Shown here in pieces: positions 11,439 through 38,227 of a stretch of 41,219 nt of DNA. Each line of letters starts with the position of its first letter. Position 1 is the first letter of the stretch. A model generated the notes under the pieces. The model ran no database searches. It saw only the letters and a list, made by a program, of their open reading frames with translations, and was not told the DNA's origin. The stretch lies in IMG/VR virus record IMGVR_UViG_3300024255_000059, positions 1-41,219 of that record. One strand, written 5' to 3'. Position numbers and translations under genes: made by a program. This DNA comes from a virus.

Positions 11439-12278
11439 TCATTTTAAAGATTGTCCTAACTTTTGACCAATTGCTAAATAATCTTCAATTGGTCCTTTAT
11501 TGATGCCTAACTGGTTTGTTTCAAAGTTTTTTGCAACCATGTTTAATATCCCATCTTCAATATAGGATAATACGCCAATCGGTGTAGAACAGTCACCGTC
11601 AATTTCTTTTAACATTTCTTTTTCGGCCATTACAGTATGCCATGTATCAATATCATTTCTTGCCCAACACCATGCTGTAATAGTTTCATCTATTGGTGTT
11701 TTAGGCTTTCTTGTTTGAAGAGCAATAACGCCTTGACCTGGTGCAGGTAACATATCTGCAGTTCCAAATACATGACTTGCTTTATGAGTTAATCCCAATG
11801 TATCAAGTCCTGCTTTAGCAACTACGATCGCATCATATTCGCCATTCTCTTGTTTAGCGATTCGACTATCAATATTACCTCTAATAGGGACTATAGTTGC
11901 TCCTGGATATAACTCTTGTAACTGGTAAGACCTTCTAGGGCTACTTGTGCCTATGGTCCTAGGGTTTATATTATTACCGACTAAACAGTCACTAAAGTCA
12001 CTTCTAGGTAACACACAGGTCACTTCAAGCAGGTCGTCGTTATCTCTTGTTAAATCTTTAAAGGCATGACATGCAATATCAATATCTCCATTAATAAGTG
12101 CTGTTTCTATTTCTTTACAGAATACTCCTTTGTTTCCCATTTCTTCAATGGTTAACTCTGGATTTAAGTCTGCTTGTGAATGTATGAATACAGTTTCTAA
12201 ATCAATGCTAAGATGATTTCTTGCTTTTTCAGTATATGCTACTGCTAACTGTGATTGTCTTGTTCCAATTTTGTACAT
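11439..12278 (-). CDS. hemC: Porphobilinogen deaminase (hydroxymethylbilane synthase)
   Basis: A 279-aa enzyme that joins four porphobilinogens into hydroxymethylbilane, the precursor of heme and other tetrapyrroles. The family signatures are present: GTRQSQLA at the N-terminus, FCKEIETALINGDIDIACH, the catalytic Asp75 in HAFKD, TSSPRRSYQL at 111-120, RGNIDSR at 133-139 and PAPGQGVIAL at 179-187. The dipyrromethane-cofactor cysteine is Cys230 in DGDCSTPIG. Bacterial HemC is usually near 310 aa, so the C-terminal domain is slightly short, but no key residue is missing. The ATG lies 12 nt after the 3' end of a tRNA-Glu gene and has only a weak ribosome binding site. HemE lies on the other strand 8 kb away. 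Confidence 0.95.
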   Translation of the reverse strand: MYKIGTRQSQLAVAYTEKARNHLSIDLETVFIHSQADLNPELTIEEMGNKGVFCKEIETALINGDIDIACHAFKDLTRDNDDLLEVTCVLPRSDFSDCLVGNNINPRTIGTSSPRRSYQLQELYPGATIVPIRGNIDSRIAKQENGEYDAIVVAKAGLDTLGLTHKASHVFGTADMLPAPGQGVIALQTRKPKTPIDETITAWCWARNDIDTWHTVMAEKEMLKEIDGDCSTPIGVLSYIEDGILNMVAKNFETNQLGINKGPIEDYLAIGQKLGQSLK

Positions 12279-12290
12279 AATATAATTTCT

Positions 12291-12365
12291 TGGTACCCCG
12301 TAGGAGAGTCGAACTCCTGTTGCCGAGATGAAAACCCGGTGTCCTAACCACTAGACGAACGGGGC
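12291..12365 (-). tRNA. tRNA-Glu (anticodon UUC)
   Basis: The reverse strand folds into a 75-nt cloverleaf. The acceptor stem pairs GCCCCGT with ACGGGGT (first pair G-U). The anticodon arm is CCGGG-TTTTCAT-CTCGG with anticodon TTC. The T-arm has GTTCGACTC, and CCA is encoded at the 3' end. It lies immediately upstream of hemC and was probably transcribed with it. Phage tRNAs usually supplement translation of AT-rich phage codons (here GAA). Charged tRNA-Glu is also the first substrate of C5-pathway heme synthesis. Confidence 0.95.
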
Positions 12366-14994: not shown

Positions 14995-15031
14995 TTGCAA
15001 TTATTTTGACTTATTTTCAATTTGCAATATT

Positions 15032-15039
15032 ATAAATAA
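15032..15039 (+). promoter_or_regulatory. Perfect T4-type late promoter driving the curli-like cassette
   Basis: An exact TATAAATA ending 36 nt before the first ATG of the cassette (15076). The genes that follow run to 24290, mostly overlapping or closely packed, with no other convincing plus-strand promoter or terminator until 24295. The whole 9 kb accessory block is therefore probably expressed late, with the virion genes. Confidence 0.8.
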
Positions 15040-15075: not shown

Positions 15076-15372
15076 ATGGAACAAATCTTGCAATTGATAT
15101 CTGATGTAGGTTTACCTATAGCAGGCGCTTTAGTGATGGGATTCTTTATCTTTATCATTATTAAGCAGATGATGGAAGGACTTATTGATAATATCAAAAC
15201 TTTAACAATTTTCAGTGAAGGGCTAGAAAATAGAGCGCGCTCTATGAGTAATGAAATTGTTAAAATCGACCTGCTAGTTTCTAGCGCATTAGACTTGAAA
15301 CCAGATACAGAAAGAATTGCACGAGCTGAAAATTTTATTGAAGACGGTAAACTGGACGTGAGGAGAGATTAA
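15076..15372 (+). CDS. Small holin-like/YvrJ-like membrane protein A
   Basis: A 98-aa protein: short N-terminal helix (MEQILQLISDVGLP), one membrane span (about 14-32) and a helical, charged cytoplasmic or periplasmic tail. The layout resembles the 15574 protein (xLVSEYGFP then a span, then a coiled helix), so the two are probably paralogs. Small one-span proteins of this kind include YvrJ-family and some holin-like proteins. It is the first gene of the late cassette. A role in membrane permeabilisation or in anchoring the export system is possible but unproven. Confidence 0.65.
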   Translation: MEQILQLISDVGLPIAGALVMGFFIFIIIKQMMEGLIDNIKTLTIFSEGLENRARSMSNEIVKIDLLVSSALDLKPDTERIARAENFIEDGKLDVRRD

Positions 15373-15374
15373 CA

Positions 15375-15584
15375 ATGTTATACTGTGATTATACATTTTC
15401 TATTGACGGAAGTGGATTAAAATTAACAGACAAAGATACACAGTGGGAAAAGTACCAACAAGTAAAGATTGAGAATACACCTTTACAAGTAGGAGATACT
15501 TTTACTTTACTGACCGACGAAGACGGGTGCATGTTTTTTAGAAAAAATGCTCCTGTACAATATGAGTTGAACTTTGGAATTTGA
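15375..15584 (+). CDS. Small beta-rich protein of unknown function
   Basis: A 69-aa protein with strand-like segments (YTFSIDGSGLKLT, QVGDTFTLLTDEDGCMFFRK). It begins 2 nt after the previous stop and overlaps the next gene by 11 nt. Many marine T4-like phages carry a short protein of this shape. The function is unknown. Confidence 0.6.
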   Translation: MLYCDYTFSIDGSGLKLTDKDTQWEKYQQVKIENTPLQVGDTFTLLTDEDGCMFFRKNAPVQYELNFGI

Positions 15585-15873
15585 TGTAGCTCAATTAGTA
15601 TCAGAATACGGTTTCCCAACAATCATGGTTGTTGGTTTGGGTTACTTCGTATATTTCGTTTGGAAATTTATAAACGAGAAGATACAACCAGCTATTGATA
15701 AACATCACATGCAATTAATTAAAGTAATTGACCGTGTTAGAATGTTAGACCAAGACCTTATAAGATTACAACAAAAAGTAAATGTAGTTTTGGAATATAG
15801 AGCTCGACAAGAATTGTTAAAACATTACGAAGACAAAATCGAGCTAGAAAAGAGAAATAAAGATGAAGATTAA
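15574..15873 (+). CDS. Small holin-like/YvrJ-like membrane protein B
   Basis: A 99-aa protein with start codon TTG at 15574, inside the end of the previous gene. The N-terminus EFDVAQLVSEYGFP is followed by one membrane span (about 16-33) and a long amphipathic/coiled helix (IDRVRMLDQDLIRLQQKVNV). It resembles the 15076 protein in layout, and both precede csgF. The TTG start is inferred because no ATG or GTG lies before the conserved N-terminal helix. Confidence 0.65.
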   Translation: MEFDVAQLVSEYGFPTIMVVGLGYFVYFVWKFINEKIQPAIDKHHMQLIKVIDRVRMLDQDLIRLQQKVNVVLEYRARQELLKHYEDKIELEKRNKDED

Positions 15874-16366
15874 TGGAACATACTTAGGATTACTTGTAAT
15901 TGGATTGTATTTTTCAGTTCAAGTCTGTGCAGAACCTATTGTGCACAAATTTAAAAATCCTAGCTTCAGTGGTATAGGAACAGGTGCTCATTATTTGACT
16001 ATTGAGAACCAAGAACATTCACGTAAGAAAGCAATTAAGGATGCTCTTGAAGCTGCAGAAAGAGCAGCAGAAAGAGAAATTGACAACTCAACATTATCAA
16101 AATTTATACGGAACTTGGAAAGTAGAATATATGCTCAATTAGCAAAACAGTTAGTTGACAATATGTTTTCAAATGATAACCCAGTTCGATTTGGTTCATT
16201 TGTACTCGAAGGCTCAACAGTGACTTATGAAGTCATTACAAATATAGATGGAACTGAATTTATTAAAATGACAATTGTAGATGAGAATGGAACAACTACA
16301 GTCATTGAAATACCAATTGGTTCTGGTAACTTTGGCGGAGACGGCAATGCGACTGACGGCGGCTAG
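15863..16366 (+). CDS. csgF: CsgF-like curli assembly adaptor
   Basis: A 167-aa exported protein with a signal peptide (about 1-23, ending VCA). The mature N-terminus IVHKFKNPSFSGIG matches the CsgF segment F-x-N-P-x-F-G-G, known from E. coli to insert into the CsgG pore. A helix-rich middle (SKFIRNLESRIYAQLAKQL) and a C-terminal strand region (YEVITNIDGTEFIKMTIVD, then TTVIEIP) match the rest of the family. E. coli CsgF is about 138 aa; the extra length is a charged helical insertion near 48-75 and a Gly/Asp tail. It overlaps csgG, as expected for a coupled pair. Confidence 0.9.
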   Translation: MKINGTYLGLLVIGLYFSVQVCAEPIVHKFKNPSFSGIGTGAHYLTIENQEHSRKKAIKDALEAAERAAEREIDNSTLSKFIRNLESRIYAQLAKQLVDNMFSNDNPVRFGSFVLEGSTVTYEVITNIDGTEFIKMTIVDENGTTTVIEIPIGSGNFGGDGNATDGG

Positions 16367-17291
16367 TATTGCAATACTATTTCTAGCTGGTTGTGCACAG
16401 ATGCCACAATGGTCAGATGGACCTGGATATTGTTCATACGAGACTGGTCAATTTGAACAAGGGTTCGGTAAAGTTAGAGATAAAAACGGTGATGGTATGG
16501 TATTAGACAAACTATACACTGGTACAAGAAAATATGTTGGTGGTAAATTTATTTGCATAGAACAACCAGAAGTTGTTAACTTACCAGCATATGTAGAGTT
16601 ATTAAATCTACCACCTGCAAAAACAAAACCTGTAGTTGCAGTTTATAACTTTGGAGATAAAACTGGACAAAGAAAAGATTCACAAAGTGGTCAATCATTT
16701 TCTACAGCAGTAACACAAGGTGGAACAGAATTAATTATTGATGCGCTTAAAACAGCAGGTGGAGGAACCTGGTTTAGAGTAGCAGAAAGACAAGGGATTG
16801 ATGCTCTTGTTAGGGAAAGACAAATCATTCGCTCAGGCAGAGAAGAAGTAGCAAGAGCGACTGGTGAAGAAGTACAAAAACTGGGACCATTATTATTTGC
16901 AGGTATGGTAATCGAAGGCGGGATTATCGGATATGACAGTAATATTAAAACAGGTGGTCGAGGCGCAAGAACGCTCGGTATTGGTTTTAGTAGGCAATAT
17001 AGGCAAGACCAAGTAGTAATTTCATTAAGAGCAGTTAGTGTTCTTACAGGTGAAGTACTCTTAAATGTACAAACTAAAAAGACAATTTTAAGTTATGGCT
17101 CTGGTGGTGACGTATTTAGATTTTACGAGCAGGGCACACAGTTGGTTGAGTATGAAGACGGTGTAGGAAATAATGAGTCAGTGACGTATGCAGTACGAAC
17201 AGCAATAGAAGCTGCCGTGCTGGAAATGGTCTATCAAGGGAATCGTCGTGGGTTCTGGGAGATAGATTTTAATAAAGAGGAAGAAGAATGA
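16347..17291 (+). CDS. csgG: CsgG-like outer-membrane curli secretion channel (lipoprotein)
   Basis: A 314-aa protein homologous to the nonameric CsgG pore that exports curlin subunits. The lipobox LAGC at 13-16 follows a short hydrophobic signal, so it is lipidated and sent to the outer membrane. Clear family blocks are VVAVYNFGDKTGQ, SFSTAVTQGGTELIIDALK, the FRVAERQGIDAL helix, VEGGIIGYDSN, GARTLGIGFSRQYRQDQV, TKKTILSYGSGGDVFRF and the end RRGFWEID. I chose the ATG at 16347 because it has GGCGGAG upstream and gives a proper lipoprotein signal. The longer reading from 16281 would bury the lipobox. It overlaps csgF by 20 nt. Confidence 0.95.
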   Translation: MRLTAASIAILFLAGCAQMPQWSDGPGYCSYETGQFEQGFGKVRDKNGDGMVLDKLYTGTRKYVGGKFICIEQPEVVNLPAYVELLNLPPAKTKPVVAVYNFGDKTGQRKDSQSGQSFSTAVTQGGTELIIDALKTAGGGTWFRVAERQGIDALVRERQIIRSGREEVARATGEEVQKLGPLLFAGMVIEGGIIGYDSNIKTGGRGARTLGIGFSRQYRQDQVVISLRAVSVLTGEVLLNVQTKKTILSYGSGGDVFRFYEQGTQLVEYEDGVGNNESVTYAVRTAIEAAVLEMVYQGNRRGFWEIDFNKEEEE

Positions 17292-18016
17292 TTAAGAAAC
17301 TTTTAGGCCTAAGTTTATTGATACTTCCAGCTTTCGTATTTGCACAAGCTACTGATGATAATGAAATAAACATTGAGCAAGTTGGTGATACATTAACATT
17401 GTACATCGACCAATACGGATATGGTAACAAAATAGGATTAGACGACTTTTCAAGTAGTTCTAGTGCTATGACAATTACGGGTTCTTCATTGAACATAAAC
17501 ATTGACCAAATAGGTAATGAAAACTTATTATTTGGTCCTGTTGTATCTGACAGTAGTACTTATAATTTATTGTTTACTGGCGATAGTAACTCAATGGATT
17601 GGAATATCGGTTACATAGGTAGCTCAGATAGTTCAACTATTGATTTAGATATTTCTGGTGATAGTAATACCTTGGACTTTGACCAAGGATTCAATGCAAG
17701 TGCTGAAAGATTGGATTTTGATTTAACACTTATTGGCGACAGCAATATTTTTGATATTGATATAGACGTCGATGACGCTATTTGGAATTTTGATATTACA
17801 GGTGGAAGCAACAACATCAACACCATGCAGAAAGATGGTGGAGAGCACGAGATTAACTTGACTCTAGATGGCTCATCAGCTGATATCGATATTAATCAAA
17901 TGAGTGGTACATGTGCTACAGGTGTAACAACTTGTAATGGCATCATCACTTTAGATGTTGATAGCGAAAATGCGACTATACAAATCAATCAGAAAGATTC
18001 ATCTAGCGATAGTTAA
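17288..18016 (+). CDS. Curlin-like amyloid-repeat protein 1
   Basis: A 242-aa secreted protein: signal peptide (about 1-19, VFAQA), then INIEQVGDTLTLYIDQYGYG, the curlin-type N-x-I-x-Q-x-G pattern. The rest is built of about six units of some 23 residues with GDSN or a variant in the turn and alternating Asp/hydrophobic strands (SGDSNTLDFDQG, IGDSNIFDIDID, TGGSNNINTMQK). Canonical curlin repeats carry S-x5-Q-x-G-x2-N; here Asp often replaces Gln, so the fibre would be very acidic. A Cys pair (CATGVTTC) sits near the C-terminus. The start overlaps csgG by 4 nt and has GAGGAAG upstream. It is probably the major or minor subunit (CsgA/CsgB role). Confidence 0.88.
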   Translation: MIKKLLGLSLLILPAFVFAQATDDNEINIEQVGDTLTLYIDQYGYGNKIGLDDFSSSSSAMTITGSSLNINIDQIGNENLLFGPVVSDSSTYNLLFTGDSNSMDWNIGYIGSSDSSTIDLDISGDSNTLDFDQGFNASAERLDFDLTLIGDSNIFDIDIDVDDAIWNFDITGGSNNINTMQKDGGEHEINLTLDGSSADIDINQMSGTCATGVTTCNGIITLDVDSENATIQINQKDSSSDS

Positions 18017-19130
18017 AGCATTTTTATTTTTGACAGTATTGTCAATTAATCTGTCTGCAGCAGATTCTATTGGCAATATTGTCGAATTTAAGGGCGATGC
18101 ATCTCTTACGAGAGAAGCAGGTGCGGAACTCGTTATTGAACAAAAACAAATCCCCGAAGTTCAAATGAACGATACGGCCGAAACAGAAAATGGCCGAATT
18201 AAAATAGAATTCTTAGACGAGGCAGAACTTAGCCTCACAGAAAATACTCGAGTATATATCGACCGAGTATATTACGACCCAGACCCAAGTAAATCAAAAA
18301 TGGCTATGAGAATGGCAATGGGAACCGCTAGGTTCGCATCAGGTCGTTTGGGAATGGTCAATCAAAACAATATTGATATACAAACACCTACTGCTAGTAT
18401 TGCAGTTCGTGGAACAGACTTTACAACCACCATTGACGAGTTAGGGAGGTCTCTTGTAGTACTACTTCCTGATGCGTATGGTAACCCTTCGGGTGTCATA
18501 GAAGTATCTAATCTAGGAGGTACTGTGACCCTAGATGAGGCTTACGCAGCTACTATGGTATCAACTTTAGACAGTCCACCAACTCCTCGAGTACAACTAT
18601 CCAATATTACTCCAGCAATGATTGATAATATGTTTATTGTATCTCCACCTCAAGAAATACAAGAAGCTATTGATGAAGAATTGGCTGATGATTCAGACCA
18701 AGACCAAGGATTGTTGGATGTAGATTTTTTAGAATTTAACGAATTAGAATATGATGCACTTGAAGAAGATGCATTAGAATTTACAGAACTCGATATTGAC
18801 TATTTAGATGTCGATTTCTTAACAGATTTATTAGATGTTGTCGAGGAACTTGTTAAGACAACAGCAGCTCTTGATGATAGAGCAATTTCAGGTACATCAT
18901 TAGGAGCTCAAATTAAAGGAGCAAGTTTTGGTTTAAATGCAGATTCACAATATAATGTATTTGAACAAGATGGAAATATAGTTTTTTATAGAAATGTACA
19001 AGGCACAATAAGAATCGTGCTCGCAGTGGATTCTTCAGTAAAAATTGATACTGAAGTTGAAGGCTATTCTGGTATAATTGATTTAAACGGGGGAAATGAT
19101 TCCACAATTATAATTAAGCAAGGCGGATAA
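17970..19130 (+). CDS. Exported FecR-domain protein with a curlin-like C-terminus
   Basis: A 386-aa protein. The start is taken at ATG 17970, giving a signal peptide ending near NLSAAD; the ATG at 17955 is the alternative. Residues about 30-185 form a FecR domain (IGNIVEFKGDASL, a TAETENGRIKIEFLD strand, TPTASIAVRGTDF). FecR domains are periplasmic beta-sandwiches used in signalling and surface assembly. Residues about 230-310 are an acidic run with repeated L(D/E)(F/Y) steps (LDVDFLEFNELEYDALEEDA). The last 20 residues (SGIIDLNGGNDSTIIIKQGG) have the turn and spacing of a curlin repeat. It overlaps curlin 1 by 47 nt and precedes curlin 2, so it belongs to the fibre system. Confidence 0.85.
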   Translation: MRLYKSIRKIHLAIVKAFLFLTVLSINLSAADSIGNIVEFKGDASLTREAGAELVIEQKQIPEVQMNDTAETENGRIKIEFLDEAELSLTENTRVYIDRVYYDPDPSKSKMAMRMAMGTARFASGRLGMVNQNNIDIQTPTASIAVRGTDFTTTIDELGRSLVVLLPDAYGNPSGVIEVSNLGGTVTLDEAYAATMVSTLDSPPTPRVQLSNITPAMIDNMFIVSPPQEIQEAIDEELADDSDQDQGLLDVDFLEFNELEYDALEEDALEFTELDIDYLDVDFLTDLLDVVEELVKTTAALDDRAISGTSLGAQIKGASFGLNADSQYNVFEQDGNIVFYRNVQGTIRIVLAVDSSVKIDTEVEGYSGIIDLNGGNDSTIIIKQGG

Positions 19131-19133
19131 ATA

Positions 19134-19229
19134 ATGTATAACTATTACTATAATAATTATCAAAGATATTTAAAATTAAAATATGGATGGTCAGTACGAC
19201 CAGGGCAAATAGTGGATATTTACGTATGA
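19134..19229 (+). CDS. 31-aa tyrosine-rich micro-protein
   Basis: A short frame starting MYNYYYNNYQRYLKLKYG and ending VDIYV; 9 of 31 residues are Tyr. It has a good ribosome binding site (AAGGCGG, about 8 nt before the ATG). Its TGA overlaps the ATG of curlin 2 (ATGA), the coupling pattern used across this operon. The gap it fills would otherwise be the only non-coding 95 nt in the cassette. No family is known to me. Confidence 0.5.
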   Translation: MYNYYYNNYQRYLKLKYGWSVRPGQIVDIYV

Positions 19230-19951
19230 CAAAATTAACATTAACAAAATTATTTTGTATTTTATTATTAATTACTTTAGCTGTATCAGCTGATGATAAT
19301 GTAATCAGTATAGAACAAACTGGTGATAATTTTCAATTAGGTATTGACCAATTTGGTCACTCTAATAACATCAACATGCTAGATAGTAATTCATATATCT
19401 CTGCAACAAATTTAGACATGTATTTAGTTCAAGTGAATACAAGCTCTACAGCACTTCCTAATAAAATTAGATTTGATGAAATAAGTGGTCAAGGCAATCA
19501 AATGAAATTAGGTCAAGGTATTGACTGGACTGATATTACATCAGACACTAACTTGTCTTGGAGTTACGATGGTTGGGAAGGCGGTGGCCACGAAATAGAT
19601 ATCACAATGTATGGTGATTATAATCAATTAGCAGTACAACAAACAAACCAATCTACTGCACTCGACGGACATAACTTTGATTTACATTTAGCAGGTGATA
19701 ACAACGAAGTTAAAATAAAGCAACAAAGTGATGGTGCAAAGAGTATAGACCTTACAGTTTACAATGACTGGAACGATGTATTCATTAGACAAAAAGGAAA
19801 CGGTGCTACTCACAACGCAAATATTACTCTTGATGGATTATATGGAACTGATTTAATATTAAAGCAAATGAGCCAAACAAGTCAAACATATACATTAAGT
19901 GTTGACTGTATGAATTTTAATGGATGCGGAGTAACAGTAACACAGGAATAA
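19226..19951 (+). CDS. Curlin-like amyloid-repeat protein 2
   Basis: A 241-aa secreted paralog of curlin 1: signal peptide (about 1-21, LAVSA), then DDNVISIEQTGDNFQLGIDQ, matching the first repeat of curlin 1. Units of about 23-25 residues follow with a GDxN turn and Q-containing strands (MYGDYNQLAVQQTNQ, LAGDNNEVKIKQQSDGA, NDWNDVFIRQKGNGA). These are closer to canonical curlin repeats than those of curlin 1. A C-terminal Cys pair (CMNFNGC) and the final VTVTQE recall the end of curlin 1. I chose ATG 19226, which overlaps the 31-aa ORF stop; the upstream ATG at 19187 lies inside that ORF. Confidence 0.87.
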   Translation: MTKLTLTKLFCILLLITLAVSADDNVISIEQTGDNFQLGIDQFGHSNNINMLDSNSYISATNLDMYLVQVNTSSTALPNKIRFDEISGQGNQMKLGQGIDWTDITSDTNLSWSYDGWEGGGHEIDITMYGDYNQLAVQQTNQSTALDGHNFDLHLAGDNNEVKIKQQSDGAKSIDLTVYNDWNDVFIRQKGNGATHNANITLDGLYGTDLILKQMSQTSQTYTLSVDCMNFNGCGVTVTQE

Positions 19952-19953
19952 TT

Positions 19954-20265
19954 ATGGACTTAGATATATACGGCAATCCAGTAGGAACTAAATATCCAGG
20001 AGAAGGAAACTGTCCTGAAGGTATGATGTGTATTCCTGAAAACGAATTTCATATGCAGCTCGAGGAAGCAGGTATGGAATACGACGAAACATCAAGAGAG
20101 ATACAACCCGTAGGTGATGCCGAAGCCATCATAGACTTTACAAAAGATTTGTTATTTTTAGATATTAGTGTAATATTTAATATGGCAGTTCCTCTTACAA
20201 TATTCGCGGTATATGGTTTAACGATTTATGCGGCGGTGAAATTCATTCAAAAGAAATTAAGTTAA
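19954..20265 (+). CDS. Small membrane protein with C-terminal anchor
   Basis: A 103-aa protein beginning MDLDIYGNPVGTKYPGEGN, with two cysteines in NCPEGMMC, an acidic middle and one C-terminal membrane span (about 75-96) ending in a basic FIQKKLS. AGGA lies 7 nt before this ATG; the earlier ATG at 19924 lies inside curlin 2. It sits between the curlin and heme genes and has no resemblance I can see to CsgE or CsgC. Confidence 0.7.
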   Translation: MDLDIYGNPVGTKYPGEGNCPEGMMCIPENEFHMQLEEAGMEYDETSREIQPVGDAEAIIDFTKDLLFLDISVIFNMAVPLTIFAVYGLTIYAAVKFIQKKLS

Positions 20266-20268
20266 ATT

Positions 20269-21204
20269 ATGAAAACATTATTACAAAGAGTTATACAAGA
20301 TAAAGAAGTGAACTTATATCCAGTCTGGTTAATGAGACAAGCTGGAAGATACATGCCAGAATATATGGCGATCAAAGCAGAAAGTAATGGCTTTTTAGAT
20401 ATGGCATTAACGCCTGAAAAAGCAACTGAGATTACAATGCAACCTATTAAAGAATTTGATATGGATGCAGCAATTATATTCTCAGATATATTAATCATCA
20501 ATTATGCTTTAGGGCAAGAGTTAGATTATAACCCTGCTCCAGAGCTTGGACCTTATAAAGAATCTTTTTGGGAAACAACAGAAAGCGAGTTTATTGAAAA
20601 ATGTGAACCCGTTTATGAAGCAATACGAAGAGTAAGAGAAGAACTTGATGATAGTAAATCACTTATTGGATTTGCAGCAGCTCCTTATACGCTCTGTAAG
20701 TACATGTGTGATACTGTGGATTCAGATATAGTTAACCGATTAATACCATATATTGTTACTCACCTTTCAATGCAGATTGAAGCAGGTTGTGATACAGTAC
20801 AAATCTTTGATAGTCACGCTGGTGATATATCAGAACATGACTTTGATGAAATCATTATTGAACCAACAAAAATTATTGTTGATGTCATTAGAGCACATTA
20901 TCCTCATGTTTGTATTATTGCTTTCCCAAGATTAGTTGGTAATAAAATAAACGAATACATTGAGATTGTAAATCCTGATTGTACAAATATTAGTGATGAT
21001 TTACCAGTTGACGAAATTAATGGTGAAGTACTACAAGGTGGAATCTCAGTTAAAAGATTAATTAAGGGCGAAGACATCACCCCCGTTTTAGATAAAATGA
21101 AAGATAAACCTTACATTGTTAATCTAGCTCACGGCATACATAAAACTACACCAGTAGAAAATGTTAGAGCATTGGTTAATACAGTTAAAGAATATCGTGC
21201 TTAA
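20269..21204 (+). CDS. hemE: Uroporphyrinogen decarboxylase
   Basis: A 311-aa cytosolic enzyme that removes four carboxyl groups from uroporphyrinogen III to give coproporphyrinogen III. The defining motif PVWLMRQAGRYMPEY is at 18-32 with both arginines (Arg23, Arg27). FSDIL carries Asp73, GFAAAPYT carries Tyr140, QIFDSHAG carries Ser182 and NLAHGIH carries His288. All match the catalytic set known from the family. Cellular enzymes are about 340-350 aa; the shortening is spread through loops, so this looks functional. There is no clear ribosome binding site. It lies 3 nt after the preceding stop and may be read by coupling. Confidence 0.95.
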   Translation: MKTLLQRVIQDKEVNLYPVWLMRQAGRYMPEYMAIKAESNGFLDMALTPEKATEITMQPIKEFDMDAAIIFSDILIINYALGQELDYNPAPELGPYKESFWETTESEFIEKCEPVYEAIRRVREELDDSKSLIGFAAAPYTLCKYMCDTVDSDIVNRLIPYIVTHLSMQIEAGCDTVQIFDSHAGDISEHDFDEIIIEPTKIIVDVIRAHYPHVCIIAFPRLVGNKINEYIEIVNPDCTNISDDLPVDEINGEVLQGGISVKRLIKGEDITPVLDKMKDKPYIVNLAHGIHKTTPVENVRALVNTVKEYRA

Positions 21205-23245
21205 ATATCTCACAAAATGGTGGACTGTCTGTATTACTATTGCAGCATTCAGTGCAATTCAGATTAGTAACCCAGATTTAATTCAGAGCGTTAAGTATTC
21301 TTATTATGATTATCTACAATCCAAACAAGAAACAATTCACTCAAGTGATATTATATTAGTCAACATTGACGAAAAAGCGATCGCGCAAGAAGGTCAATAT
21401 CCATGGCCAAGAGATATACATGCTAAATATTTAGATGCAGCTCCTGCTGATGCACTCAATGTATTGAACATTATATTTTCCGAAAATGATAGATTTGGCA
21501 AAGACAATGTTCTTTCTCAAGCAATGGCAAATAAAGCAGTTGTATTATCTTCTGCTCCTACTCAACAAACATCAGATGGAGTTGGCACCTTTGTAGGTGT
21601 TGCAACTTTTGGAGAACAAAATGATAATTGGCTTTACGAATTTCCAGGCTTACTCTATCCTATTGATAGTTTGTCTAATTGGGCTTTTGGGGTTGGGGCT
21701 ACAGTTGCAATACCTGACCAACCAACAGGAGTTGTGCGAAGAGCCCCGTTGGTCGTCAAAGCAGCCGGGAATAGGTATCCATCTCTCGCGCTCGACACTT
21801 TACGAGTGTATTCTGGAGAACCAAGCTACCAAATGAAAGTAGGTCCACAAGGAGTGGAATGGATTCGCATGGGTCGACAAGACCCAATTACAACAAACTC
21901 TTTTGCAGAAGTACCAATATCTTTTTGGAATTCTTTTGACTCAATCAGTATAACAGAATTAAATGACTCCTATAGTGGTAAGATACTCTTGTATGGAATA
22001 ACAGCAGAAGGTTACTCTAATCCAGTTGCAACCCCAAAGGGTGCAGTGTATCCCCACGAAGTTCAAGCTCATCTAATCCAGACCGTCCTTTCAGGCGTTG
22101 AAATAAAGATTCCCGACTGGACTGCAATATTTGAGCTTTTCTTTCTTGTGATATGCTGTCTAGGAATCCTTGCAGCGGTCTATGTCTTGCCCACATCTCT
22201 TGCGGTGATAACGAGTCTTCTTCTCGTTGGTTCCGGAGCCGGATTGAGTTACTATTTTTGGACTTCCGCCTTAACCTTTGTTGATGCATCTTTAGTTTCA
22301 TTAGCTTCCTTAGTTGTATTTGCTCAGTCAAGTTATAATAAGTATTATATCACATTCCAAGAGAAACGTCAAATAGAAAAGCAATTTGCAGGTTATGCAT
22401 CGCCCACAGTTGTTCGCCTCTTACAAGAGAATCCTTCTCTAATAAAAGATGGCATGAAGCGTGAGATTAGTATTTGTTTTTCTGATTTACGAGGTTTCAC
22501 TCCACTAGGAGAAAGCTTTGGTGATGATGTCAAGGGACTGACAAAATTAATGAACGAATATATGGATGCGATCACCGAGCCTGTTCTCCATGCAGATGGT
22601 ATGATTATAAAATATATAGGGGATGCGTCAATGCACATTCACAATGCTCCTATAGAAGATAAAGAACATCCTAAAAATGCAGTACAAACTGGACTGAATA
22701 TGCTTCGAGCAGTAGAGAAATTTAATGAACAGATTACAGCAGAAGGTAGACCGCCAATTGGTATGGGAGCTGGGATTAACACTGGTCTTGGTTATCTTGG
22801 TGAGATGGGGTCTACAGCAAGACATAGTTATGATGTACTTGGTGACAGCGTTTCAACAGCTGCACGAATTGAGTCTAAATGTAAAGAATATGGTTGTTTA
22901 TTATTAGTTGGTGGAGATACAGTAAAACACTGTAAAAAGGATTTCTTTTTCCTCAAGGTAGATGATTTAGCAGTAAAAGGTAAAACTGTAGGAATTGAAA
23001 TATATACTGTGCTTGACTTGAATAAAGATAAATATATTAAACCGGCAGAGATGCACGAAGCAATGCATTCAAATTATCAAAAACAAAACTTTGATAAGGC
23101 GATCAAAATATGTAATGACCTTATGGATTGCTTTGAAGGACAGATGAAAGGTTATTACAACATGTGGATTGAGCGTTGTGAGTATATGAAAACGCAAGAT
23201 TTACCTAAGGATTGGAATGGGGTATTTATCGCGACTACTAAGTAG
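21197..23245 (+). CDS. CHASE2-domain class III adenylate/guanylate cyclase
   Basis: A 682-aa membrane sensor. The N-terminal span (about 8-25) is followed by an extracytoplasmic CHASE2 domain (about 45-300; IILVNIDEKAI, YPWPRDIHAKYLD, NIIFSEND), three spans (about 309-375) and a C-terminal cyclase domain (about 420-620). Metal-binding aspartates are Asp430 (FSDLRGFT) and Asp476 (KYIGDASM). Lys472 and Asp546 match the adenine-selecting pair, and Arg557 is kept. The transition-state Asn of class III cyclases is Ser553 here (GDSVSTAAR). The start is GTG 21197, which overlaps the hemE stop by 8 nt; the ATG at 21161 would add residues coded inside hemE. It would make cAMP in response to a periplasmic signal if active. 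Confidence 0.92.
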   Translation: MLKYLTKWWTVCITIAAFSAIQISNPDLIQSVKYSYYDYLQSKQETIHSSDIILVNIDEKAIAQEGQYPWPRDIHAKYLDAAPADALNVLNIIFSENDRFGKDNVLSQAMANKAVVLSSAPTQQTSDGVGTFVGVATFGEQNDNWLYEFPGLLYPIDSLSNWAFGVGATVAIPDQPTGVVRRAPLVVKAAGNRYPSLALDTLRVYSGEPSYQMKVGPQGVEWIRMGRQDPITTNSFAEVPISFWNSFDSISITELNDSYSGKILLYGITAEGYSNPVATPKGAVYPHEVQAHLIQTVLSGVEIKIPDWTAIFELFFLVICCLGILAAVYVLPTSLAVITSLLLVGSGAGLSYYFWTSALTFVDASLVSLASLVVFAQSSYNKYYITFQEKRQIEKQFAGYASPTVVRLLQENPSLIKDGMKREISICFSDLRGFTPLGESFGDDVKGLTKLMNEYMDAITEPVLHADGMIIKYIGDASMHIHNAPIEDKEHPKNAVQTGLNMLRAVEKFNEQITAEGRPPIGMGAGINTGLGYLGEMGSTARHSYDVLGDSVSTAARIESKCKEYGCLLLVGGDTVKHCKKDFFFLKVDDLAVKGKTVGIEIYTVLDLNKDKYIKPAEMHEAMHSNYQKQNFDKAIKICNDLMDCFEGQMKGYYNMWIERCEYMKTQDLPKDWNGVFIATTK

Positions 23246-23798
23246 TTTACTAATTTGCTTTCTTGCAAATCCGACCCATGCAAAGACCCATGCAAATTAC
23301 GAACCAGTCATTTATTACCATACAGATGCACAAATAGCATTGTTTATGAAGGGCTATCATTCTCCTTATAAACCAGAGTATGTTCGTAAAGTAGTTGGTA
23401 AAGTTCGTATAGGAAAAAATGGTGCTCTAATTAATTTACCAGACCCGGCTGTTGCTTATCCAAAACTTAATTTAGATTTTGATTTTGAAGAAGACGATTG
23501 GAACTATCAAGCAAACTTTTTAATCGTACATGCACTTGATTTATATTCAACATATAAAGGATTAAAGTATGATTGTATTTCAGAAGCAAATCCGTTAGTT
23601 GGTAAACATCCATCTCTAGGTGAACTAATATTCTTTAAAGTTGGTATTATTACTTTATTGGAAGGAATATATGGTGATTATCCAACGGAGTGGGAAGCGT
23701 TTCAAACAGTTTCAGCTATGACTACAGGAGTTGTAGTACAAAATAATTTCGATGTAATAAGCGATGCGAGAGATAATCCTCGTTGTAAGAAAAGATAA
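23217..23798 (+). CDS. Exported/membrane protein resembling DUF5658
   Basis: A 193-aa protein with a signal peptide (about 1-22, NPTHA) and a 75-residue outside part. A hydrophobic region at about 100-180 follows, with the signature LDLYSTYKGLKYDCISEANPLVG-type residues (LD..ST..GL....EANPL) seen in DUF5658-like small membrane proteins, and FKVGIITLLEGIYG. AAGGA precedes the ATG, which lies inside the end of the cyclase gene (29-nt overlap). The tight linkage suggests a partner of the cyclase or the export system. The function is unknown. Confidence 0.7.
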   Translation: MGYLSRLLSSLLICFLANPTHAKTHANYEPVIYYHTDAQIALFMKGYHSPYKPEYVRKVVGKVRIGKNGALINLPDPAVAYPKLNLDFDFEEDDWNYQANFLIVHALDLYSTYKGLKYDCISEANPLVGKHPSLGELIFFKVGIITLLEGIYGDYPTEWEAFQTVSAMTTGVVVQNNFDVISDARDNPRCKKR

Positions 23799-23799
23799 A

Positions 23800-24126
23800 A
23801 TGGTGGAGTTAACAGATGCAGCAATATCTAAAGCGATTGAAAAAACAACAAGCCCGTGCCCAAATAATATCAGACTTGGTGTTTCTAGCGGTGGGTGTGC
23901 TGGGTATGAGTATATTATTACTTATTCTCACGAAATAAACAATGACGATAATGTTTTAGATTATGGTAAATTTAAAATAGTCATAAACGAAATGTCTAAG
24001 CCTTATTTAGAAGGGTCTACGATAGATTGGGTAAAAGAAGGATTAAATGAATATTTTAAAATCATTAATCCAAAAGAAGTTGCATCATGTGGATGTGGCA
24101 TATCAATTCAATTTGAGGAAAATTAA
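23800..24126 (+). CDS. A-type Fe-S cluster carrier (IscA/ErpA/HesB family)
   Basis: A 108-aa protein of the HesB/IscA fold (E. coli IscA is 107 aa). It starts MVELTDAAISKAIEK and has the three cluster-ligand cysteines: Cys33 in GGCAGYEY, and Cys97 and Cys99 in SCGCG. A-type carriers hand Fe-S clusters to apo-enzymes. I chose ATG 23800 because the family starts at this helix; the ATG at 23764 lies in the previous gene. A link to heme synthesis is possible, since the oxygen-independent HemN uses an Fe-S cluster, but the target is unknown. Confidence 0.93.
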   Translation: MVELTDAAISKAIEKTTSPCPNNIRLGVSSGGCAGYEYIITYSHEINNDDNVLDYGKFKIVINEMSKPYLEGSTIDWVKEGLNEYFKIINPKEVASCGCGISIQFEEN

Positions 24127-28743: not shown

Positions 28744-28827
28744 TTATATGAGGAAAATGAGGCAAAATAGACCTACCCACCATAACCAGTGGGCAGATTT
28801 TATTTCTTCGATGATTTTCTTAATCAC
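28744..28827 (-). CDS. 27-aa membrane peptide coupled to the HD hydrolase gene
   Basis: A frame starting at a GTG that overlaps the stop of the HD gene (GTGA): VIKKIIEEIKSAHWLWWVGL, then FCLIFLI and a stop. A charged helix is followed by one span. Size and alternative start leave doubt; the overlap and hydrophobic pattern support it. Confidence 0.4.
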   Translation of the reverse strand: MIKKIIEEIKSAHWLWWVGLFCLIFLI

Positions 28828-29351
28828 TTCTTATCCCAGTTCTCGTTGAGCACGGTCTGAGCTTTATATAGAAGATTAGCATCAGCTTTTGTTAAGATGT
28901 TCAACATATATTGCTTTTCATGTTTGAAAGCTTTATGGAAGAACTTTTGGTCATGCTTGATTATAGATTCAGCATTAGACAAAAGGTCTGCTATTTTAAT
29001 TGTTTGGGCCTCGGGTGGTCCTAAAGCAAAATGGTCAGCATCCATCTTCTTACGAAACGCACGGTTTCCGTCTTCCTTATCGGAGACGTTTGTGCAATAG
29101 TGTACATATTCGGCAACAGTATAGCCAAATTTTTCTTTGATATCTCTTAATGTAACTGGAGTATCTTCTACAACATCGTGTAGTAAAGCTGCAGCTATCA
29201 TTTCTGTTGTAGCTTCAACTTCTTTTTCTAGAATATCTGCAACATGAATTGGGTGAACAACATAAGGTTCACCAGTATATTTTCTGCGTTGATCGCCATG
29301 TGCTTCTATAGCAAACATTGTAGCGTCACTTATTACTTTTCTGTCTATCAT
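28824..29351 (-). CDS. HD-domain hydrolase of the SpoT/MESH1 (ppGpp hydrolase) type
   Basis: A 175-aa protein with the compact HD fold of small alarmone hydrolases: FAIEAHGDQRRKYTGEPYVVH-type start (AH..Q.RK.TGEPY..HP), the metal-binding pair in ALLHDVVEDTP, FGYTVAEYV, and KIADLLSNAESI, the position of KLADRLHN in SpoT. MESH1 proteins are about 180 aa. It would remove the 3' diphosphate of (p)ppGpp and damp the stringent response. The start is ATG 29351, because the longer reading begins on the -35 box of this gene's own promoter. The ATG lies 8 nt after the -10 box, so the mRNA may be leaderless. Confidence 0.87.
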   Translation of the reverse strand: MIDRKVISDATMFAIEAHGDQRRKYTGEPYVVHPIHVADILEKEVEATTEMIAAALLHDVVEDTPVTLRDIKEKFGYTVAEYVHYCTNVSDKEDGNRAFRKKMDADHFALGPPEAQTIKIADLLSNAESIIKHDQKFFHKAFKHEKQYMLNILTKADANLLYKAQTVLNENWDKK

Positions 29352-29358
29352 ACTCGTT

Positions 29359-29387
29359 ATTATAACATGCTTTAAGTAGTTTGTCAA
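29359..29387 (-). promoter_or_regulatory. Consensus sigma70 (early) promoter at the start of the HD hydrolase gene
   Basis: On the minus strand TTGACA (29382-29387), 17 nt, TATAAT (29359-29364). Only 7 nt separate the -10 box from the ATG at 29351, so transcription would begin at or next to the start codon. Confidence 0.93.
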
Positions 29388-38219: not shown

Positions 38220-38227
38220 TATTTATA
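38220..38227 (-). promoter_or_regulatory. Perfect late promoter TATAAATA for the resolvase gene
   Basis: On the minus strand an exact TATAAATA 22 nt upstream of the resolvase ATG, with GAGGAG in between. It is the only perfect late octamer found in the minus-strand block. Confidence 0.75.

Follow-up and report, generated by a model that had tools for sequence, protein, structure and literature searches.

A phage CHASE2-sensor nucleotidyl cyclase with serine at the transition-state asparagine position, fixed in one clade and exchanged between phage lineages

What use does a phage have for a membrane receptor that makes a cyclic nucleotide, and can such a receptor still signal when the asparagine of its transition-state site has become serine? 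Both questions are raised by a gene at positions 21197-23245 (+ strand) of a 41,219-base virus fragment from IMG/VR (record IMGVR_UViG_3300024255_000059), the whole of which is referred to here as the window and supplies all coordinates unless another locus is named. Its terminase, sheath, portal and gp23 capsid genes mark the window as part of a T4-like myovirus genome, and the gene in question encodes a CHASE2-sensor class III nucleotidyl cyclase with serine at residue 553. Given the evidence set out below, we consider it probable, at roughly 0.6, that the protein is an active cyclase, probably making cyclic AMP (cAMP), which serves in a relay between a FecR-domain protein and the CHASE2 sensor and is not a decaying copy. 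The serine itself is a fixed property of one clade of phage enzymes, whose catalytic half has moved as a unit between phages with different sensors.

The enclosing open reading frame runs from 21161 to 23245 (+) and would give 694 residues counted from the ATG at 21161, an alternative start; the GTG at 21197 agrees with the start position in homologs and yields the 682-residue form by which residues are numbered throughout. An earlier note, made from the letters of this DNA alone, had called the product a full membrane sensor cyclase, and this is borne out by a CHASE2 domain match (21245-22156, +; PF05226, 9e-31), mostly periplasmic and C-terminal to the first transmembrane helix, by a class III catalytic domain match (22457-23005, +; PF00211, Guanylate_cyc, 1.8e-16), and by predicted transmembrane helices. 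In the AlphaFold2 model, which has a mean predicted local distance difference test score (pLDDT) of 82, a single membrane helix at the N-terminus leads into an extracytoplasmic domain of mixed alpha/beta structure; three further membrane helices connect this to the catalytic domain, which is followed by a helical tail. With membrane helices at residues 8-24, 309-330, 333-358 and 365-397, the PF05226 domain is flanked in the model by one N-terminal and three C-terminal helices, which is the layout of a CHASE2 receptor. Foldseek groups the catalytic part with CyaB, CyaC, Cya2 and Ma1120 (3r5g, which is CyaB, 1wc3 and 4wpa; template modelling scores by target 0.82-0.84, with 0.83 for 3r5g), and no solved structure is similar by sequence to the sensor half. 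Over its full length the protein matches PHROG 35576 (1.4e-148), for which the library lists no function.

Within the catalytic domain the hallmarks of class III are present, namely two metal-binding aspartates, Asp430 (22484-22486, +) and Asp476 (22622-22624, +), a Lys/Asp purine pair of the adenylate type, made up of adenine-binding Lys472 (22610-22612, +) and, at the second adenine-binding position, Asp546 (22832-22834, +), and the transition-state Arg557 (22865-22867, +). The transition-state asparagine, a feature typical of these enzymes rather than defining for them, is replaced by Ser553 (codon TCA; 22853-22855, +), an assignment that comes from both profile alignment and the survey of the clade. 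Aligned by profile to solved cyclases, Ser553 pairs with the asparagine of 6fht, CyaB 3r5g, 2w01 and CyaC 1wc0 with no gap nearby, and no asparagine lies between the conserved INTG motif and Arg557 in the window cyclase. The substitution proposed in the earlier note therefore stands, and the possibility it had raised against itself, that the asparagine is merely shifted, is ruled out by the ungapped alignment. Its further statement that the other catalytic residues are kept holds in part: the metal aspartates, Lys472 and Arg557 are invariant in the Ser clade, whereas Asp546 is derived, since the closest bacterial CHASE2 cyclases carry Ser or Thr there.

The gene had also been thought rare in phages, and this did not survive. 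Relatives are encoded by at least 464 and at least 555 viral stretches for the two catalytic types described next, the gene is annotated in the isolates Pelagibacter phage HTVC008M and Methylophilales phage Melnitz, and an adenylate cyclase with FecR in pelagiphage curli clusters was reported in 2022 (PMC9599517). IMG/VR contigs are redundant, so distinct sequences were counted; the sets of loci were picked by similarity, and their frequencies are not population estimates. Phage versions of the gene have two types of catalytic domain. In the Ser type, to which the window belongs, serine occupies the site in 61/61 distinct catalytic domains, with Asp at the adenine position, and in the Asn type asparagine does so in 57/57, with Ser at the adenine position. 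Among the nearest 89 bacterial homologs, taken from 640-odd genomes of two phyla (Pseudomonadota and Planctomycetota), 87 have Asn, two have Thr and none has Ser, and the closest alphaproteobacterial CHASE2 cyclases have Asn in nine cases out of nine. A scan of the collection that tolerated Ser, Thr, Cys, Arg or Trp at the site returned 101 distinct sites, all 101 with Ser, and the same scan with Asn found no such version of the phage motif in viral contigs. Serine is encoded by TCN in 25 and by AGY in 29 of 54 distinct Ser-type loci; as no single base change leads from one codon family to the other, selection at the protein level holds the serine in place. Sequencing error or lineage noise is likewise ruled out by the mixed codons of the 61 distinct domains. 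The survey of homologs thus places serine as fixed in one phage clade and absent from the 89 nearest bacterial proteins.

A cellular source of the Ser type was sought on a larger scale. A scan of 84,980 species genomes by patterns preceding the site gave three loci, all of them phage contigs in metagenome-assembled genomes (MAGs), and hidden Markov model searches over about 1,030 genomes of Pseudomonadota and Planctomycetota found nothing between the phage set (E ~1e-175) and the bacterial homologs (E of at least 8e-70). Contigs named 'Rhodobacteraceae bacterium Water_Bin34' and 'Pirellulales bacterium BS30m-G48' (L020, L021, L022) carry the phage curli-cyclase cluster and are apparently phage contigs binned into MAGs. 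Records of 'Acinetobacter phage MD-2021a' (L018) contain mfd, hscA and a host cyclase and resemble bacterial chromosome, and the Acinetobacter 'phage' matches were rejected as bacterial chromosome contigs.

How the serine came to be so widely distributed is answered by comparing the two halves of the protein, with groups set by catalytic residue or by the first alignment, ahead of tree building. The Ser type and the Asn type each form a fully supported clade on the catalytic tree, whereas on the sensor tree they are interleaved. One locus (L013) joins the window's sensor to an Asn-type output, and Melnitz and two further loci (L022 and L084) join HTVC008M-like sensors to a Ser-type output. A single Ser clade on the sensor tree is rejected by the approximately unbiased (AU) test (p=1.8e-6), as is, on the catalytic tree, a topology that joins L013 to the window group (AU p=2.6e-56), and pairwise identity switches near the KQF motif, just past the last membrane helix. 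The catalytic half has been swapped as a unit between phage lineages with different sensors, and the conflict between the trees means that serine reached several phages by domain exchange and not by repeated point mutation. The C-terminal helical tail (23009-23242, +), with LPKDWNGVFIATTK at its end, is absent from Asn-type phage enzymes and common to alphaproteobacterial CHASE2 cyclases; the sharing of its terminal motif, DW[ND]GVF.AT.K, between these and the Ser type indicates an alphaproteobacterial source for the domain, although the stem branch of the Ser clade is long and its exact root uncertain. The serine variant may well have a single origin, in an Asn-bearing ancestor of the alphaproteobacterial CHASE2 type; the replacement of Ser/Thr by Asp in the adenine pocket and changes at other nearby positions would have arisen along with the serine, after which the catalytic half was exchanged among phages.

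At sixteen fixed positions the Ser type departs both from Asn-type phages and from bacteria, and the most striking of them encircle the active site: Ile471, Ser478, His480, His482, Glu536, Asp546 and Ser553. Ile471, directly before Lys472, stands where 88/88 bacterial sequences have Asp, and Ser478, His480 and His482 are located C-terminal to the second metal aspartate. Ser553 therewith looks like part of a rebuilt pocket and not like one damaged residue. The ratio of nonsynonymous to synonymous substitution (dN/dS) in Ser-type pairs is 0.04-0.12 for the catalytic half against 0.11-0.19 for the sensor half, the catalytic value mostly being the lower, and a value this low counts against decay of the Ser-type enzyme. 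Together with the invariance of the other catalytic residues, this weakens the earlier suggestion that the protein acts mainly as a sensor.

The likely input is suggested by a neighbouring gene. A secreted FecR-domain protein, the proposed periplasmic partner of CHASE2, is encoded at 17955-19130 (+; PF04773, 5e-10), upstream of the cyclase on the same strand and in the same operon, and four other phage loci likewise have a FecR domain in the corresponding gene. Of 20 bacterial genomes with close homologs, 4, probably 6, have a FecR gene immediately ahead of the CHASE2 cyclase gene and on the same strand; the case is clear for G737, G359, G363 and G985 and probable for G219 and G337, whose FecR frames are very long. 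In Sinorhizobium meliloti nsrA and cyaK overlap by one base, NsrA has a FecR domain (2e-15) and CyaK has CHASE2 and cyclase domains, and signal perception requires both proteins (PMC7529298). Further FecR-CHASE2 cyclase clusters are described in Campylobacterota (PMC9239204), and a Burkholderia biofilm operon has FecR with CHASE2 kinases (PMC5192318). FecR with a CHASE2 cyclase is thus a bacterial module that predates its use by phages. Because of this gene association we propose, by analogy, that the phage FecR protein serves as periplasmic partner to the CHASE2 sensor and not as an iron regulator. In HTVC008M, gp017 (L017 9560-10666), annotated as hypothetical, has a FecR domain (1e-8), and gp018 (L017 10638-11963) has curlin repeats and a PA14 domain.

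The timing of expression can be approached through the promoter. A T4-type late promoter element, TATAAATA (15031-15038, +), lies 37 bases ahead of the first operon gene. The element is not over-represented in the window (3 copies against 5 expected), and it is found within 150 bases in 32/80 distinct upstream regions of relatives against 0.9% of random 150-base stretches. This conserved placement supports late expression of the operon, which the earlier note had assumed, as a prediction from sequence. The other two copies, at 38220-38227 and 2279-2286, stand directly ahead of gene starts and in the correct direction, the downstream genes being a RuvC-like gene from 38197 (-) and the tail sheath gene from 2350. 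A further motif, NATAAATA, is found 12-14 bases ahead of the cyclase start in 17/49 distinct Ser-type loci, including Melnitz (L016, ahead of 12001), against a control of 2.5% per 150 bases, and is perhaps a second late promoter or a piece of the start region.

As to output, no domain binding cyclic nucleoside monophosphates (cNMP; PF00027) was detected in 14 phage records, including the complete Melnitz and HTVC008M genomes; a phage-encoded cAMP receptor was accordingly discarded for these records, and a host regulator is therefore the likely target. Several cNMP-binding proteins are present in some streamlined alphaproteobacteria that have a CHASE2 cyclase on the chromosome, with one such gene beside the cyclase. 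In 1.4-Mb alphaproteobacterial genomes (L399 and L400) the gene after the CHASE2 cyclase encodes a small cNMP-binding protein that may be its direct effector.

In the mechanism that we favour, the gene would supply a late-expressed phage membrane receptor cyclase whose periplasmic CHASE2 domain controls a cytoplasmic class III domain acting as a homodimer. The likely input would be the state of the cell envelope, conveyed by the operon's secreted FecR protein and the CsgG/CsgF/curlin system in a manner modelled on Sinorhizobium, where outer-membrane NsrA, itself a FecR-domain protein, feeds the CHASE2 cyclase CyaK, and the likely output would be cAMP acting on host cNMP-binding regulators. Catalysis, cAMP as the product, the FecR partnership and an effect on the host are what we infer. 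Several considerations pull the other way. The AlphaFold2 model is weak (pLDDT <50) at residues 473-476 and 536-548, such that its active-site geometry is not reliable; the phage FecR and cyclase genes are split by a curlin-like gene, to which the window adds a small gene and hemE. Moreover, most class III enzymes retain the transition-state asparagine, and in the mammalian cyclase it is said, from work by Yan in 1997, to contribute to catalysis.

Of the alternatives, the one that fares best, though we regard it as unlikely, is that the enzyme has acquired a different chemistry, yielding another cyclic nucleotide (cGMP, cCMP, cUMP or a mixture) or using a different catalytic arrangement, so that its signal is distinct from host cAMP. 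The clade-fixed changes in the pocket (Asp471-to-Ile, Asp546, Ser553, His480 and His482) speak for it, as does the best PADLOC match, to a Pycsar cyclase model that is also class III (4.7e-16); yet Lys472 and Asp546 together make up the pair that usually selects ATP (PMC4215837), and the PADLOC match covers the generic catalytic core only, with no Pycsar effector or defence context seen. A Pycsar cyclase (PycC) as such was rejected, the domain match being generic and the neighbours curli, heme and phage genes. We also entertain, tentatively and with more doubt than belief, a bolder proposal, namely that the phages have an active-site class of their own (Asp/Ser in place of Ser-or-Thr/Asn, plus the pocket changes), strongly selected and traded between sensors, which would emit a late signal that is possibly not plain cAMP in response to an envelope cue received via FecR and the curli pore.

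Less probable still is a pseudoenzyme, that is, a binding-only receptor or a dead dimerisation domain left after loss of the asparagine. The asparagine of 87/89 nearest relatives and its importance in mammalian enzymes would fit such a loss, but the remaining catalytic residues are invariant, dN/dS is low and serine is kept in both codon families. Furthermore, Ma1120 is a natural class III cyclase that is active with Ala at the same site, and restoring the Asn lowers its activity (PMC4215837); consequently, Ser553 need not mean an inactive enzyme. We hold in similarly low regard the published reading of the cluster (PMC9599517), in which cAMP from the cyclase drives curli transcription and FecR is an iron-citrate regulator. 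In its favour, csgF, csgG, curlin repeats and FecR are conserved companions of the cyclase gene, and cAMP acts on csgD in enteric bacteria, as the same paper argues. CsgD, however, is lacking according to that paper, and an operon with its own T4-type late promoter needs none; no cNMP-binding protein was detected in the 14 phage records, and in the bacterial cases named here the signalling pair of FecR and a CHASE2 cyclase comes without curli or iron genes. That Ser553 is a neutral oddity of one phage or an assembly error is highly improbable: single-position changes at conserved sites do happen, but serine is present in all 61 distinct Ser-type domains, including that of the isolate Melnitz, and the Asn version of the motif is absent from the viral contigs scanned.

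The operon around the cyclase consists of + strand genes, mostly tightly packed, from 15076 to 24126, within which csgF, csgG, curlin repeats, FecR and cyclase follow the conserved order of the pelagiphage curli (type VIII secretion system, T8SS) cluster. It opens with two small membrane proteins (15076-15372 and 15574-15873, both +), each assigned to phrog_18771 and without a Pfam match; Pfam finds no kinase domain in this pair of about 100 residues each, and one or two histidine kinases are reported ahead of csgF in other pelagiphages, in podovirus clusters (PMC9599517). Next come CsgF, the curli outer-membrane accessory protein (15863-16366, +; PF10614, 9e-15), CsgG, the curli outer-membrane pore (16347-17291, +; PF03783, 2e-53), whose presumed start is that of a lipoprotein in a frame open from 16281, and a curlin-repeat secreted protein resembling CsgA/B (17288-18016, +; PF07012, 8e-4, slightly below the curated cut-off). 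Beyond the FecR gene lie a second curlin-like secreted protein (19187-19951, +), which has no Pfam match and whose positional homologs in HTVC008M and Melnitz have curlin repeats, a small protein with a C-terminal hydrophobic stretch (19924-20265, +; no Pfam match), and HemE, uroporphyrinogen decarboxylase (20269-21204, +; PF01208, 9e-70). HemE precedes the cyclase only in the window's subclade, and a literature search for a phage uroporphyrinogen decarboxylase found no paper. The cyclase is followed by a small secreted or membrane protein (23217-23798, +; weakly DUF5658-like, 4e-4, below the curated cut-off) and an IscA/HesB-type iron-sulfur protein (23764-24126, +; PF01521, 1e-12). Melnitz has two annotated curlin-repeat genes (L016 9191-9910 and 10969-11985), although PMC9004378 says that it has no fibre genes.

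A second heme gene, hemC (11439-12278, -; PF01379, 6e-57), adjoins a transfer RNA gene, tRNA-Glu(TTC), at 12291-12365 (-), and a small number of related phage loci likewise have HemC (L002, L004, L010, L015 and L313). Charged tRNA-Glu is the precursor of the C5 pathway. An HD_4 family protein (28824-29387, -; 3e-16) belongs to a family that includes hydrolases of guanosine tetraphosphate (ppGpp), and is a possible phage alarmone hydrolase.

Host-style second messengers made by phages have been little studied, although hundreds of marine viral contigs contain relatives of this gene. The Ser clade represents a natural experiment on a residue that textbooks treat as essential to cyclase chemistry, and the Ser and Asn phage enzymes with related sensors allow a clean comparison, while the pairing of FecR with CHASE2 is a testable alternative to the published reading of an abundant cluster as an iron and curli regulator. 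CHASE2 is not mentioned in the pelagiphage papers PMC9004378, PMC9599517 and PMC7029224, and a literature search that excluded most subscription journals found neither the Ser clade nor the domain exchange described in print. New here are the fixation of the Ser clade, its 16 linked changes, the exchange of the catalytic half, the conserved late promoter and FecR-CHASE2 as a bacterial module.

Among known systems the closest in gene order are Melnitz gp104 and HTVC008M gp019, which stand, as in the window, at the end of the series csgF, csgG, curlin, FecR, curlin-like and cyclase; hemE and the IscA-like gene are extra in the window. Melnitz gp104 has a Ser-type catalytic domain like the window's but a sensor of the HTVC008M kind, and HTVC008M gp019, unlike the window, has an Asn-type catalytic domain and no C-terminal tail. 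Ma1120 of Mycobacterium avium (PMC4215837) resembles the window as a natural class III enzyme without the asparagine that keeps the Lys/Asp pair and the arginine; it differs in having Ala rather than Ser and in not coming from a phage, and CHASE2 is not described for it in the portion of that paper available. The alphaproteobacterial CHASE2 adenylate cyclases, of which NsrA-CyaK is the studied case, share with the window both the combination of CHASE2 with a class III domain and an associated FecR-domain gene, there immediately upstream. Their nearest members have the tail DWDGVFVATTK in common with the window, whereas CyaK is without the tail motif. They differ in carrying Asn at the transition-state site (GDAVNLASR in CyaK) and Ser or Thr at the adenine site, and NsrA is an outer-membrane protein of 1200 residues where the phage FecR protein is secreted and has 391.

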